From: a virus | Direction: 5' to 3' (one strand) | Virus record (IMG/VR): IMGVR_UViG_3300027816_000402 | Location: 1-23,868 of that record | Length of the DNA stretch: 23,868 nucleotides | Part shown: positions 3,175 to 18,627 of the stretch, one piece after another | How the letters are laid out: the number at the start of each line of letters is the position of its first letter | Position numbering within the stretch: the stretch's first letter is position 1 | The notes under the pieces: generated by a model | Database searches by the model: none | What the model was told of the DNA's origin: nothing | What the model saw: the letters and a program-made list of their open reading frames with translations, nothing else | Position numbers and translations under genes: made by a program

Positions 3175-3428
3175 TGGATTTAAAATCTGACAAAGCTAAA
3201 AGCTTGACTAAAAACCAGGTATTTTTAGAGCTTAGAAAGTATATCCGAGAACAGATTGATTTGTCAAACCGTAAGTCGTTAGATGAGGATAATTTCTCTC
3301 TTCCAGCATGGTCTGAACATCAAGCGTACCAATTAGGCTTCCAAAAAGCCTTTCTTAAACTATATAATCTTATTCCTGACCAAGGAGAAATAAATGACAG
3401 AAGTAACAGCAACACAAGTAACGAATAA
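3174..3428 (+). CDS. Small conserved-looking phage protein (84 aa) between portal and scaffold
   Basis: Function unknown. The 84-aa product is charged, with an amphipathic N-terminal helix (NQVFLELRKYIREQIDLSN) and a segment FSLPAWSEHQAYQLGFQKAF that resembles a motif I associate with small podovirus proteins next to the scaffold gene (recall, unverified). There is no other ATG in the frame and no Shine-Dalgarno before it; the predicted transcription start coincides with the start codon, so it may be translated leaderless or only from read-through mRNA. The 3' end overlaps the scaffold gene by 35 nt in another frame. The last ten residues are low-complexity (NDRSNSNTSNE) and come from the overlap. 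Confidence 0.7.
   Translation: MDLKSDKAKSLTKNQVFLELRKYIREQIDLSNRKSLDEDNFSLPAWSEHQAYQLGFQKAFLKLYNLIPDQGEINDRSNSNTSNE
3335..3356 (+). other. Short stem-loop followed by a T-rich run inside the 84-aa gene
   Basis: AGGCTT (3335..3340) and AAGCCT (3346..3351) form a perfect 6-bp stem with a 5-nt loop (CCAAA), followed by TTCTT. It lies 160 nt downstream of the promoter and 40 nt before the scaffold start, so it could be a weak attenuator, but it is in coding sequence and short, and may be chance. Confidence 0.3.
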
Positions 3429-4110
3429 CGAGCCAAGTACCAACGAGGTTCAAACACAAGATAGCCAAAAACCACAGTTTCAGATTCCGACAGAAGCTGC
3501 TGACTTTGTAGGTGATGGCAAGAAGTATAATTCTGTAGAAGATGCGTTAAAATCAGTTCCTCACGCACAGAAGCATATTCAAACTTTAGAGTCTGAATTA
3601 GCTACTTTGAAGGAAGAACTCACTAAACGTAAGACTGCAGAAGAACTTCTAGATGAATTGAAGTCTGGCATCCAACAACCTGAGAATACCACTCAACCTG
3701 CTGGAATAGATCAAGATACAATTACGAACCTTTTAAATCAAACTCTAGAGAATAGAGAAAAACAAGCTAAGGCTAAGGCTAATGCCGATTCAGTAGCTCG
3801 TAAATTTGTAGAAAAATATGGCGATAAAGCTGAAGAAATCTACAATAAAGTTGCTCAAGAGAGTGGTTTAAATGTTCAGCAATTAAATAACTTGGCAGCT
3901 AGCTCTCCAAATGTTGTATTAAAACTTTCAGGATTAGAAGGTACATCTACACCAGTAGGTAAACCCACTAGTTCTGTAAACACAGAGGCACTCAATACTA
4001 AAGTTGATCCTAATCAGCTTTCAGCTAGAGTTAAACCTGGTGCTACTACGAAAGATTTAGTTAATGCTTGGAAGATTGCTGGTGAAAAAGTTAAATCTCA
4101 ACTTAACTAA
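3394..4110 (+). CDS. Capsid assembly scaffolding protein
   Basis: 238-aa scaffold that should direct capsid polymerisation and then leave the procapsid, the counterpart of T7 gp9. The N-terminus is low-complexity and polar (T/N/E/Q-rich), then comes FVGDGKKYNSVEDALKSVPHAQ, a motif common in podovirus scaffolds, a predicted coiled coil (HIQTLESELATLKEELTKRKTAEELLDEL), and a basic helical C-terminus (ATTKDLVNAWKIAGEKVKSQLN) of the kind that contacts the capsid protein. The start is supported by AAGGAG 5 nt upstream. It lies directly before the capsid gene, as expected. It is shorter than T7 gp9 (307 aa). Confidence 0.88.
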   Translation: MTEVTATQVTNNEPSTNEVQTQDSQKPQFQIPTEAADFVGDGKKYNSVEDALKSVPHAQKHIQTLESELATLKEELTKRKTAEELLDELKSGIQQPENTTQPAGIDQDTITNLLNQTLENREKQAKAKANADSVARKFVEKYGDKAEEIYNKVAQESGLNVQQLNNLAASSPNVVLKLSGLEGTSTPVGKPTSSVNTEALNTKVDPNQLSARVKPGATTKDLVNAWKIAGEKVKSQLN

Positions 4111-4122
4111 TAAGGAAATATT

Positions 4123-5106
4123 ATGTCACAATTAACTTCAAATACTACTGCTTTTATTGAAGCACAACAGTATTCTCAGTTCATTCTTGACAACTTACAC
4201 GACTTCTTATTGCCAGAAGGTTTATACAGAGATGTAACAGACTTCGGATCTGGTACTACTTTAAACATTAAGACAGTTGGTACAGTTACACTTCAAGATG
4301 CTGCTGAAGATACACCTTTAGCTTTTAATCCTATCGACACAGGTACAATCACACTTTCTATCACTGACTATGTTGGTGACGCTTGGAAAGTTTCTGATGA
4401 ACTTCGTGAAGATGGTGCTCAAGTTGATGCACTTATGTCAATGCGTGCTATGGAATCTACTCGTGCTCTTGGTGAAAACCACGAATCACGTTTCTTAGCT
4501 GTAGCAAACGGTGCACAAACTAATGCAAACGTAAACTTAGTAAATGGTCGTCCACATCGTTGGGTAGCTGGTGGTTCAGGTGCTTCAACTCGTGTTATGA
4601 CTTTAAGCGACTTTATTGCTATGAAATTAGCATTTGACAAAGCTGGCGTTCCTGCTGGTGGTCGTATCGCTATTGTTGATCCAATTGTTGAAGCTACTTT
4701 AAATAGCATCACCAACTTGGTATCTGTTTCAAACAACCCAATGTTCGAAGGTATCGTAACATCAGGTTTTGCTCGTGATCATAAGTTTGTTAAAAACATC
4801 TTCGGTTTCGATGTATGGACTTCTAACTACTTACCAGTTAAAACTGCAACTGAGGCATTAAATGCTTCTTCTTACGGTTTAGCTAATGACACTGCAGAAA
4901 TTGGTGACGTTGCTAACGTATTCATGAGCGTAGCTGATGATTCAACAAAACCAGTTATGCACGCATGGAGACGAGCTCCTAAGACAGAAGGCTGGAGAGA
5001 CAACGAAGAACGTGCTGATAAGTATCAAGTAACATCACGCTTCGGTTTCGGTGCCCAACGTGTTGACACACTTGGCGTTATTTTAACAAGTGGTTCTACA
5101 TACTAA
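4123..5106 (+). CDS. Major capsid protein
   Basis: 327-aa shell protein, HK97-fold family by relation to T7 gp10-type capsids (345 aa). Recognisable parts are the N-arm (MSQLTSNTTAFIEAQQYS), FLLPEGLYRDVTDFGSGTTLNIKTVG, and KNIFGFDVWTSNYLP near residue 225. An AAGGA ribosome site precedes the ATG. Codon use differs from the neighbours: most arginines are CGT/CGC and many codons end in C (TTC, AAC, ATC), while the large genes downstream favour AGA, which fits selection for very high expression. The first 17 residues recur almost unchanged at the start of the 39-aa protein at 7024. Function is secure from gene order and sequence. Confidence 0.93.
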   Translation: MSQLTSNTTAFIEAQQYSQFILDNLHDFLLPEGLYRDVTDFGSGTTLNIKTVGTVTLQDAAEDTPLAFNPIDTGTITLSITDYVGDAWKVSDELREDGAQVDALMSMRAMESTRALGENHESRFLAVANGAQTNANVNLVNGRPHRWVAGGSGASTRVMTLSDFIAMKLAFDKAGVPAGGRIAIVDPIVEATLNSITNLVSVSNNPMFEGIVTSGFARDHKFVKNIFGFDVWTSNYLPVKTATEALNASSYGLANDTAEIGDVANVFMSVADDSTKPVMHAWRRAPKTEGWRDNEERADKYQVTSRFGFGAQRVDTLGVILTSGSTY

Positions 5107-6253: not shown

Positions 6254-7024
6254 ATGGCAAAAATGACTTTACTTGAAATGGTTCAAGACATCTTATCTGA
6301 TATGGATTCAGATGAAGTCAACTCTATCAATGATAGTACAGAATCTCTTCAAGTAGCTCAAATTATTAAGTCTACTTACTATAACATTGTAGATGGTAAA
6401 GACTATCCATTCTTTAAAGAATTATTCCAATTAGATACAAGTGGTACAGTAAGTCGTCCTACACACATGAGATTACCTGAAACAATCATTGATCTTGAAT
6501 GGATTAAATATGATTGTAAGAAATCAGGTGAGACTCGTAATCGTTATACTAAGATTGAATATAAGACTCCAGAAGAGTTTCTTGATATTGTAGATCAACG
6601 ACTTAGTACTGCATCTAATATTCAAGTAGTTACAGATGCTACAGGTATTAAACTTAATATCTATAAAGATAAAGCTCCTACATACTTTACTTCTTTTGAT
6701 GACGATTATCTTGTATTTGATGCTTTTAATAATACAGTAGAGTCTGCTTTACAAAATAGTAAGACACAATGCCATGGTAAACGATCAGTAACCTTTACTT
6801 TATCTGATTCATTTATACCTGATATTCCAGTTCAAATGTTTAGTTATCTTCTTAATGATGCTAAGTCAGCTTGCTTTGTAACATTAAAACAAATGGCTAA
6901 TCCTAAGGTAGAACAACAAGCAGTATCTCAAAAACGTAGAATGAGTCAAGAAGCTTGGAAGATTAAGAATGGTATTACATATCCAAATTATGGACGTAAA
7001 CAAAATACATCAGGAAAATACTAA
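6254..7024 (+). CDS. Tail adaptor / tubular protein A-like (T7 gp11-like)
   Basis: 256-aa protein expected to form the adaptor ring between portal and tail nozzle. The N-terminal helical part (LLEMVQDILSDMDSDEVNSIND, VAQIIKSTYYNIVDGKDYPFF) followed by a beta domain (THMRLPETIIDLEWIKYD) is characteristic of gp11-type proteins, and the C-terminal SQKRRMSQEAWKIKNG helix also fits. It precedes the nozzle gene, as in T7, although four small genes intervene. It is longer than T7 gp11 (196 aa). The stop overlaps the next ATG (TAATG), indicating translational coupling to the 39-aa protein. Confidence 0.8.
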   Translation: MAKMTLLEMVQDILSDMDSDEVNSINDSTESLQVAQIIKSTYYNIVDGKDYPFFKELFQLDTSGTVSRPTHMRLPETIIDLEWIKYDCKKSGETRNRYTKIEYKTPEEFLDIVDQRLSTASNIQVVTDATGIKLNIYKDKAPTYFTSFDDDYLVFDAFNNTVESALQNSKTQCHGKRSVTFTLSDSFIPDIPVQMFSYLLNDAKSACFVTLKQMANPKVEQQAVSQKRRMSQEAWKIKNGITYPNYGRKQNTSGKY

Positions 7025-7143
7025 TGGTTATGCTCACAAGTAATACACCAGCATTTATTAATGCTCAACAATATGGTAAGAAATCTAAAAAGAAAGTAAC
7101 TACTAAAAAAGTTAAAAAACAATCTAAAAAGGTAGGAAAATAA
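7024..7143 (+). CDS. 39-aa lysine-rich protein with a capsid-like N-terminus
   Basis: A short gene that starts in the TAATG overlap with the tail adaptor gene and ends 1 nt before the next ATG, so it tiles the gap exactly. Residues 4..17 (LTSNTPAFINAQQY) match 12 of 14 with residues 4..17 of the major capsid protein (LTSNTTAFIEAQQY). The rest (about residues 18..39) is a basic tail with 14 lysines. Seven of the 12 shared residues use a different codon, so the likeness is held at protein level and is not a recent DNA copy. Function unknown; see findings. Coding status is supported by tiling and by the match. Confidence 0.72.
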   Translation: MVMLTSNTPAFINAQQYGKKSKKKVTTKKVKKQSKKVGK

Positions 7144-7144
7144 T

Positions 7145-7393
7145 ATGTCTACTATGCCAATTCAAAAGAAAAAGAAACTACCTCCAGGTAGCATTATACC
7201 AGATATGGAAGAAGTTCCTATGTCTGAGATCCAACGTGTTATGGATATGCAACAAGGTACTTTAGTTAGAAAAGCAATTGAACAAGGTACATTTACTTCA
7301 CCAGCAGATGCTGCTAAAAACTCTATGACTATTACTGAAAAGATGCTTCAGGATGAACTTAAACGTAGAGAAATGATGAAGAAGAAGAAATAA
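7145..7393 (+). CDS. Small basic protein (82 aa) with shared C-terminal tag
   Basis: Function unknown. The product begins MSTMPIQKKKKLPPGSIIPD, is otherwise helical and Met/Gln/Glu-rich (MSEIQRVMDMQQGTLVRKAIEQGTF), and ends in QDELKRREMMKKKK. The last 22 residues match 14 of 22 with the C-terminus of the following 131-aa protein. The ATG has AGGAAA upstream. It overlaps the next gene as TAATG. It sits in a run of four small proteins between adaptor and nozzle, so a virion or tail assembly role is plausible but unproven. Confidence 0.7.
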   Translation: MSTMPIQKKKKLPPGSIIPDMEEVPMSEIQRVMDMQQGTLVRKAIEQGTFTSPADAAKNSMTITEKMLQDELKRREMMKKKK

Positions 7394-7788
7394 TGGCTGG
7401 TCCTTATTCTAAATTAAAAAGAGCACAAGAACCTGACTATGGTACTCGTTTAGATAATACTCCTAAAGAACGTGGTTTCTTAGGTGAAGTTAGATTACCT
7501 AATCAACGTGATGTAATGACTGAAGTATCTGTAGGTATGCCAGGAACTAAGGAAACATATAGACCTGCTCTTACTAAAGGCATTCATCCAGCTGATCTTA
7601 ATTATATTAGAGAAACAGGTAAGGTACCTGAAGATGTTTATGCAACATCACAAAGAAGTGCAGAGAAACGTATAGCAGAAGGTAAGTCTCCATTTTGGAA
7701 TAAACTACAAGATGAGTCTACTAAAACTACAGAATCTATGCGTCAAGATGAACTTAAAAGAAGAGAACTACTTAAAGGAAAAAAATGA
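7393..7788 (+). CDS. Hypothetical tail-region protein (131 aa) with shared C-terminal tag
   Basis: Function unknown. It contains GFLGEVRLPNQRDVMTEVSVGMP near residues 28..50 and PALTKGIHPADLNYIRETGKVPEDV near 58..82, then KSPFWNKL, and ends in QDELKRRELLKGKK. The body gives the impression of a conserved phage protein, but I cannot name the family. The C-terminal 22 residues resemble those of the preceding 82-aa protein. It starts in a TAATG overlap and ends in an ATGA overlap, so it is coupled to both neighbours. No signal peptide or membrane segment is visible. Confidence 0.7.
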   Translation: MAGPYSKLKRAQEPDYGTRLDNTPKERGFLGEVRLPNQRDVMTEVSVGMPGTKETYRPALTKGIHPADLNYIRETGKVPEDVYATSQRSAEKRIAEGKSPFWNKLQDESTKTTESMRQDELKRRELLKGKK

Positions 7789-8024
7789 GAGTATTAAGCG
7801 AACACGAAACAAGTGGTGGTAAGAAAGTACAAGTAATTATTGATCCAAAGACAGCTCACTACAAAGTCCAATTTGTTCCTGGTGGTGAATTACCACAAGA
7901 ACTTACTGGTCTTTATACATCACTTGCTATGGCAAATGTTGCTGTTAATGCTTATTTATTAAAATCTGCTGAAACTAAAGCTAAAAAAGAAGAAAAAGTA
8001 GCCTTTACTCCTAAGGAAGACTAA
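7785..8024 (+). CDS. Small hypothetical protein (79 aa)
   Basis: Function unknown. The N-terminal 50 residues look like a small beta domain (MRVLSEHETSGGKKVQVIID, HYKVQFVPGGELP), followed by one Ala-rich helix (LAMANVAVNAYLLKSAETKAKK) and a charged tail. It starts in an ATGA overlap with the 131-aa gene and stops in a TAATG overlap with the nozzle gene, so it is firmly part of this translationally coupled string. Confidence 0.65.
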   Translation: MRVLSEHETSGGKKVQVIIDPKTAHYKVQFVPGGELPQELTGLYTSLAMANVAVNAYLLKSAETKAKKEEKVAFTPKED

Positions 8025-10273
8025 TGGCAGCTTTAACTGAGAAAGTCTATAGATCATTTATCAAGGGTCTTGTAACTGAGGCTAGTCCTCTTACATTCCC
8101 TGAAAATGCTTCTATTGATGAGCAAAACTTTGTTCTTAATCGTGATGGTTCTAGATCTAGACGTTTAGGTATCGACTATGAAGACAACTATGGTCTTAAA
8201 ACCACAGGATTTACTGCTGCTCAGTTAGCTACAGGTAGACAATCATTTCATCGTTGGGATACTCCAAGTGGAGATACGACTGTTTCGATTGGTGTAGTTC
8301 GTGTTAATGATAAACTTTGGTTTGTAGATCTTCTTACAAATAATCCTAGTAATAACCTTCTTAATGGAGGTAGTTCAATTTCTCTTACAGGATTAAGTGA
8401 TTCTAATATTGAAACCACTGTTATTAATAATAAACTTATTATTGTTTCTAAAGATTTAGCTAAACCAGTTGTTTTAAGTTATAACAGTAGCACAGATACA
8501 GTATCTCAAAGTACAATTAGTATTGAAGTACGAGATATTTGGGGTGTGAATGATGGACTTTTAGTAGACGATAGACCAGGTAGTTTATCCACTACTCATA
8601 AGTATAACTTAAGAAACCAAGGTTGGAATCCAACTATATCGACAGTATCAGGTGCTGATGCTATTGACTATACATTTACCATTCTTGGTTCATATCCAAG
8701 TAATGCTGATGTATGGACTTTAGGTAAAATTAGTAATGCTGCTTCAGCTGATTATGAAAAATATGATCCTAATGTATTAAAGAAAAACTCTACATCTAAT
8801 TACCAAGTAGCTCGTGGTAGTTATATTATTGATGCGTTTACTAGAGGTACAGAAAGACAAAATGTATCAGGATTAACTGGATTACCTTTAGATAAAGAAA
8901 CAAACAATATAACTACAGTAGCATCTTATGCTCAACGCTTATTCTATTCTGGAATAAACTCTATTGTTTCTGGTGGAGACTCTAGATCACCTAACTATAG
9001 TGGTTATATCTTTTTTACACAAGTTATTCAAAGTGAGGATCAACTTGGTAAATGCTACCAAGTAAATGATCCAACTGATCCATCTATTAATGACTTAGTA
9101 GCTTCTGATGGTGGATCTATTCAGATTCCAGAAGCAACACAAATTATTAAAGTAATCTCATCACAATCATCTCTACTAGTATTTGCAGAGAATGGTGTAT
9201 GGGAAGTTTATGGTGACACTGGTGGATTTATTGCAACATCATTCCAAGTATCTAAGATTTCACCTAATGGTATTATTAATCCAAGATCTATCGTAAACGT
9301 AGGTGGAAACTTTGTATACTGGTCTAAAGCTGGTATTTATTTATTAAGTCCTGATGCTGGATCTGGTCGTTTTTCTGCTCAATCTATTTCTCTTACATCT
9401 ATTCAAAAGTTATATCTAGACATTCCAGATCTAGGTAAGAATCATTGTAAGGGTTTCTATGATGAGAAAGAAAATAGAGTTCGTTGGATGTATAATGATT
9501 CGACTACATATTCTACAACAAACTATATTAATAGATACACTAAAGAACTTGTACTTGATTTAACATTACAAGCTTGGTATACAAACAGTATATCTTCTTT
9601 AGCAAGTAATTCTCCAGCGATTATAGATTATATTGAGATACCAGGTTACGCAGTTTCTACGGCAGAAAGTACAGTAGAAGTAGGAACAGATGATGTTATT
9701 GTAACTTCAGGTACTACTGTAGTGATTACAGATACTATTTTAACTAATCGTAGTTCTTTATTTAGTTTCTTAACTATGGTTGGTTCAAGTTTTACTATTT
9801 CTAAATATAACAGTTCTTCCTTTACGGATTGGAAAACAGCAGGATCAGGTACTGGTGCAAATTACTCTAGTTATCTTGTTACAGGTTACGAGTTATTCAA
9901 TGATATTATGCGTAAAAAACAAGCACCTTATATCTTCTTCTACTTTAAACGAACAGAAGATGGCTATAGTTTATCAGGAGCTAGTTTGATTTTAGATAAT
10001 CCTTCTTCATGTTTAGTACAAGCTCAATGGAATTGGGCAGACTCTGCTAATAGTGGTAAGTGGGGTAATCAATTCCAAGCATATAGATTATTAAGAAACT
10101 ATATTCCAAGTGGTGTAGGTGATCCATTTGACTATGGTGATTCTGTGATTGTAACAAAGAATAAATTAAGGGGCTCAGGTAAATGTTTAAGTTTAAAGAT
10201 AGAATCTGAAGCTGGTAAAGATATGAAATTACTAGGATGGGGTATCTCAGCATCAGCTACAAGTAACGTTTGA
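8024..10273 (+). CDS. Tail nozzle / tubular protein B-like (T7 gp12-like)
   Basis: 749-aa tail tube/nozzle protein, close in length to T7 gp12 (794 aa). The N-terminus FIKGLVTEASPLTFPENASIDEQNFVLNRDGSRSRRLG carries the hallmark start of this family (a 'G-V-(T/S)..P....P..A....N....-DG..-RR.G' pattern). The central part, with LLVFAENGVWEVYGDTGGF and NFVYWSKAGIYLLSPD, suggests a beta-propeller-like repeat, and the C-terminal part is Ser/Thr-rich. It follows the small coupled genes through a TAATG overlap and is joined to the next gene by TGATG. Function is well supported by sequence pattern and order. Confidence 0.85.
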   Translation: MAALTEKVYRSFIKGLVTEASPLTFPENASIDEQNFVLNRDGSRSRRLGIDYEDNYGLKTTGFTAAQLATGRQSFHRWDTPSGDTTVSIGVVRVNDKLWFVDLLTNNPSNNLLNGGSSISLTGLSDSNIETTVINNKLIIVSKDLAKPVVLSYNSSTDTVSQSTISIEVRDIWGVNDGLLVDDRPGSLSTTHKYNLRNQGWNPTISTVSGADAIDYTFTILGSYPSNADVWTLGKISNAASADYEKYDPNVLKKNSTSNYQVARGSYIIDAFTRGTERQNVSGLTGLPLDKETNNITTVASYAQRLFYSGINSIVSGGDSRSPNYSGYIFFTQVIQSEDQLGKCYQVNDPTDPSINDLVASDGGSIQIPEATQIIKVISSQSSLLVFAENGVWEVYGDTGGFIATSFQVSKISPNGIINPRSIVNVGGNFVYWSKAGIYLLSPDAGSGRFSAQSISLTSIQKLYLDIPDLGKNHCKGFYDEKENRVRWMYNDSTTYSTTNYINRYTKELVLDLTLQAWYTNSISSLASNSPAIIDYIEIPGYAVSTAESTVEVGTDDVIVTSGTTVVITDTILTNRSSLFSFLTMVGSSFTISKYNSSSFTDWKTAGSGTGANYSSYLVTGYELFNDIMRKKQAPYIFFYFKRTEDGYSLSGASLILDNPSSCLVQAQWNWADSANSGKWGNQFQAYRLLRNYIPSGVGDPFDYGDSVIVTKNKLRGSGKCLSLKIESEAGKDMKLLGWGISASATSNV

Positions 10274-18255: not shown

Positions 18256-18627
18256 TTAAACTACTTTGATTATCATCACAGGTAGGTTCTTCTTTTGAGT
18301 ATACTTGATACCATATTCAGTACCTTTACTCTTACCATCCCATATTACCAGAACCTTATCTGCATTGTCAATCATTTGTTTATTTCTAATGAAGAAATAT
18401 TTACTACTAAACTCTACCGTTTGATCTATTAAATGATACGGTAAAAACTCTACAAAGTCAAATCCATTTGCTTCTGCATACTTCTTTGACAATTGATCTA
18501 CACCTTTAGCACCACCTGATATAAACGTAGGCTTGCCATTGGTTTGTTCTTTTACGAATCTATCTATAATAGGAAAGACAACTTCTGCTTTGTCAACACT
18601 ACGGCTTCCTATGATACATACCTTCAT
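18256..18627 (-). CDS. SLOG-superfamily nucleotide-binding protein (DUF2493-like)
   Basis: 123 aa with the pattern of the SLOG/DprA-like fold: an N-terminal strand ending in IIGSRS (residues 5..10), then FISGGAKGVDQLSKKYAEANG (about 35..55) with the Gly-rich GGAKGVD loop, later RNKQMIDNADKVLVIWDGKSKGTEYGI with the acidic 'WDG.S.GT' motif. Such proteins bind nucleotides or nucleotide-like ligands; the precise role in phages is not known. The ATG overlaps the stop of the 44-aa gene (ATGA), and it is the last gene of the leftward unit, directly before the terminator. Nucleotide sensing alongside the reductase would fit but is speculation. Confidence 0.8.
   Translation of the reverse strand: MKVCIIGSRSVDKAEVVFPIIDRFVKEQTNGKPTFISGGAKGVDQLSKKYAEANGFDFVEFLPYHLIDQTVEFSSKYFFIRNKQMIDNADKVLVIWDGKSKGTEYGIKYTQKKNLPVMIIKVV

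Follow-up and report, generated by a model that had tools for sequence, protein, structure and literature searches.

A phage peptide of 39 amino acids, encoded directly behind the head-tail adaptor gene, carries a copy of the N-terminal arm of the phage's own major capsid protein fused to a lysine-rich tail. The genomes themselves show how the sequence is built, that it is conserved as protein, that its locus is fixed, that only phages with this capsid have it, and that it changes in part together with the capsid; by their sequences the capsid-arm copy on a lysine-rich peptide is a real, conserved trait of the family. Our preferred reading, to which we give a probability of about 0.52, is that the peptide is a two-part minor head protein—i.e. 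the arm copy docks as the capsid arm does, and the basic tail lies in the head lumen and contacts DNA.

The phage and its head genes

The window, i.e. the whole stretch of DNA analyzed, is a virus record of 23.9 kb. Its capsid is 83% identical to that of the uncultured phage MW202697, 78–80% identical to those of the Methylophilales phages MEP401 and MEP402 (classified as Zobellviridae), and ∼50–57% identical to those of Klebsiella, Vibrio, Erwinia, Salinivibrio, and Pseudomonas relatives. Capsid identity and the gene order portal–scaffold–capsid–adaptor, which is that of named Zobellviridae, make the phage Zobellviridae-like. The initial annotation had called it T7-like; its head-gene order is typical of podoviruses, though by capsid, connector, and adaptor it belongs with the Zobellviridae and is not T7-like by descent. 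No head protease was identified in the annotation of the head genes examined.

The peptide gene (Table 1) lies 3 kb downstream of the capsid gene and encodes MVMLTSNTPAFINAQQYGKKSKKKVTTKKVKKQSKKVGK, with an ATG that overlaps the adaptor stop (TAATG, 7022–7026). Its 22-residue tail had been credited with 14 lysines; a recount gives 12. A PHROGs scan of the peptide returned only stray weak matches to families, and the counterparts in cultured phages, MEP401 gp37 and MEP402 gp39, are both annotated as hypothetical. Behind the peptide gene, the adjacent ORFs at 7145–7393 and 7393–7788 have similar C-termini (SMTITEKMLQDELKRREMMKKKK and TKTTESMRQDELKRRELLKGKK), a likeness that suggests duplicated tails in this small-gene interval. 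Farther along the window, a 123-aa ORF on the minus strand (18256–18627) matches the YspA/SLOG family (PF10686, E = 1.5e-8).

Table 1. Features of the window that bear on the peptide and its capsid counterpart.
Feature	Positions	Strand	Basis or remark
Scaffold protein, conserved C-terminal helix-like end TTKDLVNAWKIAGEKVK	3394–4110	+	Position, length; homolog annotated scaffold in MEP401; C-terminus comparison
Major capsid protein (PHROG 267)	4123–5106	+	AlphaFold2 HK97 fold
Capsid N-arm motif LTSNTTAFIEAQQY	4132–4173	+	N7, F11, E13, Y17, and S18 invariant in 50 capsids
Head-tail adaptor (PHROG 7592 tail protein; "head completion adaptor" in MEP401)	6254–7024	+	Peptide gene next
AGGAAAA, probable ribosome-binding site of peptide gene	7012–7018	+	Read from sequence
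39-aa peptide gene, capsid N-arm copy plus polybasic tail	7024–7143	+	Translation; same-locus homologs in ∼95 distinct records
N-arm motif LTSNTPAFINAQQY, peptide residues 4–17	7033–7074	+	12/14 identical to capsid residues 4–17
Polybasic tail GKKSKKKVTTKKVKKQSKKVGK, 12 K/22 residues	7075–7140	+	Translation
82-aa ORF with K-rich ends, same small-gene interval	7145–7393	+	Weak match to PHROG 4419 head protein (E = 0.006)
79-aa ORF resembling the gene right behind the adaptor in peptide-less relatives (CW02 gp44 type)	7785–8024	+	Likeness by eye

Similarity between the peptide and the capsid N-terminus

The capsid begins with MSQLTSNTTAFIEAQQYSQF. The match first noticed between its residues 4–17 and those of the peptide (12 of 14 identical) is confirmed, as is the count of seven identical residues that differ in codon, the other five of the 12 sharing theirs. 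BLASTP of the pair gives 13 identities in 19 positions (E = 7e-7). The Smith-Waterman score is 62, against which the best of 2000 shuffles reached 45 for the whole peptide, 36 for the peptide N-terminus alone, and 41 for the capsid. Across the six frames of the window, the regular expression [N/D/S/T]T-x(1-3)-F[I/V/M/L/T]-x4-Y is found in two places only, the capsid and the peptide. At the level of families, profile–profile comparison (hhalign) aligns the peptide family with the capsid family in register, residues 1–19 to 1–19 (96.7%, E = 3.8e-10). A chance match is rejected on the grounds of the shuffles, the profile comparison, and the conservation across the family.

Codon identity between the two motifs is 0.53 within genomes vs 0.56 between genomes. 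As it is no higher within genomes, a recent DNA duplication or gene conversion is rejected, in line with the original view that no fresh duplication was involved, and it is the protein sequence that has been kept rather than DNA recently copied. The copy is imperfect: most peptides replace the capsid's invariant E13 with N or H, and in the majority Gly stands where the capsid helix continues. The change at E13 may point to a different partner for the peptide, and it weighs against docking as an exact copy, in that peptide and capsid may not fit one site identically. A separate, chance-like resemblance occurs inside the terminase ORF (3–1319), where GLTSNTTGFHADVVVLDD matches the capsid's LTSNTTAF at 7 of 8 positions.

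Conservation of the motif and exchange of the tail

Directly behind the adaptor, relatives fetched by capsid similarity encode a short basic protein with this motif at its N-terminus. Of 101 distinct records with a capsid identity of 75% or more to that of the window, 94 have the gene, MEP401 and MEP402 included, and the carriers are freshwater and marine phages. The ∼95 versions of the peptide keep the N-terminal motif N/D-T-x-A/S-F-I/V-x4-Y, with F and Y invariant in the aligned peptides, and the core common to peptide and capsid is, with few exceptions, T-x-N-T-x-A/S-F-I/V-x-x-Q/E-Q/K-Y. Where groups could be aligned, the motif has a dN/dS of 0.07 and the tail one of 0.43. Specifically, tails differ wholesale in sequence and length (KKSKKKVTTKK, KGKKNGRKVDSKG, KKKKGISMAIKEYGGKEVYKSK, PFKQFQIKSTKRK, and others) and are exchanged across the family with the motif unchanged; they nevertheless remain basic, with a mean K+R fraction of 0.46 and a median net charge of +14. 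The conservation at the protein level proposed from the window is borne out, and homologous small ORFs exist in relatives, with the capsid N-arm copy, the basic tail, and the locus all kept.

A DNA-pattern scan for NTxxF[IV]..[EQ][QK]Y[GS]K in the 2.9 million viral contigs of IMG/VR returned 102 stretches. The readable matches are this peptide or capsids of this family, except for 2 that appear to be random (L213 and L247), and a few lie on fragments with no capsid in the fetched stretch. The same pattern was not found in the ∼85,000 bacterial and archaeal genomes of GTDB. With matches thus limited to the family in IMG/VR and none in GTDB, a general motif of unrelated phages or bacteria is rejected, and by these scans the motif-plus-lysine pattern occurs in IMG/VR almost only in these phages.

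The capsid motif reaches further than the peptide. In CW02 and in the Vibrio, Klebsiella, Erwinia, and Pseudomonas relatives, the capsid retains the motif and no such peptide ORF is present. The adaptor is followed by a small gene of another kind in CW02, Klyazma, Pecta, PS32B-4, GP100, and MW202697. Likewise, no small basic ORF with the motif was found within the fetched flanks of 80 contigs related to the divergent capsid L216, most of which have the capsid motif. Given that distant relatives keep the capsid motif without the peptide, the latter is an add-on of the clade and not a chance match. Its restriction to the clade also makes the capsid motif the more widespread and, judging from this distribution, probably the older of the two, with the peptide an added, dispensable part. 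A lack of homologous ORFs in relatives had been named initially as evidence against the proposal; such a lack is seen outside the clade only, and not within it.

Assembly does not depend on the peptide, as seven in-clade records are without it. Short K-rich remnants with no arm motif (e.g. MVCLSKKKKKPNPKPQK) are present in L059 (∼8505–8606), L061 (∼3685–3774), and L062 (behind 9146); these remnants behind the adaptor resemble, in their tail, the motif-bearing peptide of L192 (KKKKPNPKKKPQK).

Co-change of capsid and peptide

The initial annotation had also proposed that co-variation of peptide and capsid N-terminus would mark the link as functional. The capsid core is nearly invariant and few positions are testable; of the five tested, N-3 (Leu or polar) changes in a correlated way on the capsid tree (LR = 17.8, P = 0.0014) and on the adaptor tree (LR = 20–22, P = 0.0002–0.0005), a result that survives correction for five positions, this one having been chosen after the data were seen. 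For example, capsid MASTGNT occurs with peptide MANTGNT, and capsid HNTANT with peptide FTTANT. Co-change at N-1 is marginal (P = 0.08 and 0.04), and none was found at the other three positions tested. Clear co-variation is seen at one of the five positions, N-3, and we take it as moderate support for the arm-copy link. Against that link stand two records, L136 and L288, which are natural mosaics, with a capsid arm of one N-terminal type and a peptide of another.

Predicted structure and a possible docking site

In the AlphaFold2 model of the capsid, a helix at residues 11–24 starts at F11 within a low-pLDDT N-arm. Fold neighbors are general HK97-fold capsids, and no solved relative was found by sequence. 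On this model, the motif is the helix cap (N-T) and first turns of the predicted N-arm helix, which continues in the capsid where most peptides have Gly/Lys. AlphaFold2 gave no secondary structure for the isolated 39-mer; a helix could form on binding.

In the procapsids of 80alpha, P22, and phi29, the scaffold end contacts the capsid N-arm helix (summarized in PMC12749128; for 80alpha also PMC5644958), and the SPP1 scaffold end makes the same contact (PMC6813328). Because scaffold ends contact N-arm helices in other phages, docking of the peptide on the arm's partner in the procapsid is the best-supported reading, and the scaffold protein of the window is a candidate partner of the capsid N-arm. 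The N-terminal 17 residues would mimic how the capsid N-arm helix begins, i.e. the N-T cap followed by F-I....Y, and Gly and the lysines would terminate the helix in the peptide. The arm copy would dock at the procapsid site of the capsid arm—either the scaffold C-terminal helix or the inner face of a capsid subunit—and the disordered polybasic tail would hang in the head lumen, touching incoming DNA. In this manner the phage would provide a capsid-arm tag and a basic tail in trans, as the clade's addition to an older head-assembly system. We infer such a docking partner, together with the presence of the peptide in the head, its stay in the virion, and its contact with DNA.

Alternative explanations

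The arm copy could also regulate assembly, competing with the capsid N-arm for the scaffold and tuning either assembly itself or scaffold exit; the peptide would then not have to be part of the mature virion, and the basic tail would serve solubility or nucleic-acid sensing. A precedent is SaPI1 CpmB, a rival of the 80alpha scaffold for one site on the capsid (PMC5644958), and the clade preserves the scaffold C-terminal end (GASTKDLVNAWK.AGEKVK) well. That end looks no different, however, in clade members that lack the peptide (L059, L062, and L185), and a pure competitor needs no tail that is nearly always strongly basic; we regard such a regulator as rather unlikely. A part of the neck or portal vertex, binding the portal, adaptor, nozzle, or portal-surrounding capsid arms with a tail that grips the DNA end, would suit a gene that is coupled to the adaptor stop and, in this clade, has the adaptor and nozzle genes on either side. 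But the motif matches the capsid and is absent elsewhere in the window, and the interval holds other small basic ORFs without it, so position says little and a neck role seems improbable.

That the two N-termini have no connection, and converged on a sequence favoring translation, N-terminal processing, or solubility, could be argued from the shortness of the motif and from the chance match LTSNTTGF (7 of 8) in the terminase ORF. Yet the differing codons show that conservation does not act on the nucleotide sequence, and the invariance of F and Y, the profile match across the family, the near-exclusive co-occurrence with the capsid, and the co-change at N-3 all speak for a link, which makes convergence quite improbable. 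Capsid-sensing defenses exist, and a soluble mimic of the capsid arm might mislead one, or the basic peptide might act on host nucleic acid; the clade restriction, dispensability, and fast-changing tail of the peptide would suit such a decoy. We consider this far-fetched, given that the gene sits among head and tail genes with no sign of early expression, and that the uniformly basic tail would be left unexplained.

Comparison with known systems

By analogy, the arm copy of the proposed two-part head protein is best read as a targeting tag that would carry a polybasic, probably DNA-contacting tail into the procapsid. The closest working analog is the capsid targeting sequence of T4, where an N-terminal tag of ∼10 residues is enough to send proteins into the prohead (PMC7697877). 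Both place a short N-terminal peptide ahead of a head-lumen protein; they differ in that the tag described here copies the phage's own capsid N-arm and carries a basic tail, short and disordered, as its cargo, and neither cleavage nor a head protease was identified. CpmB is similar as a small protein competing for the binding site of a head-assembly protein (PMC5644958), but it competes with the scaffold, whereas the peptide imitates the capsid arm and is encoded by the phage itself. Nor does the peptide share a motif with the scaffold in the manner of CpmB: the motif is the capsid's, and in the window only capsid and peptide have it. Arginine-rich terminal arms of viral capsid proteins are positive, poorly conserved, disordered tails for genome packing (PMC7096446). 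The peptide tail shares these three traits, but belongs to a small protein of its own, in which the docking arm is all that is taken from the capsid.

More tentatively, and with somewhat less than even odds, the capsid arm in trans may be a modular self-encapsidation tag, with exchangeable polybasic tails that would help to condense or order head DNA, and a kind of head protein not described before. In the open literature, to which our coverage was confined, no paper describing a capsid-arm copy on a basic peptide was found. If the arm copy does work as a docking tag, it would reveal a simple evolutionary route into the phage head, i.e. to copy the docking arm of the shell protein and fuse any tail to it. 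It would also mark the N-arm residues read by the partner (N-T-x-A/S-F-I/V....Y), put a short tag at hand with which cargo could be loaded into HK97-fold capsids, provide natural variants on which to test scaffold/N-arm recognition, and give a function to the small hypothetical genes of MEP401 and MEP402.

SSV1 VP2 is a virion protein with a patchy distribution that is dispensable and has homologs in unrelated archaeal and bacterial viruses (PMC9608457). The peptide resembles proteins of this type in its patchy distribution and dispensability, and a neighboring ORF in relatives has a weak VP2 match; this match belongs to that ORF and not to the peptide, which was scanned against PHROGs only. 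The neighbor, a ∼60-aa ORF (MAEKWIQKAIKKPGALRKALGVKEG...), overlaps or follows the peptide in L013 (8970–9152), L015 (6352–6534), L018 (8965–9144), L041 (9220–9399), and L063 (4744–4950). Each of the 9 members scanned has a weak match to the fusellovirus VP2 family of Pfam (PF25632); the best E is 2.2e-4, and the single match given in full lies below the cut-off.
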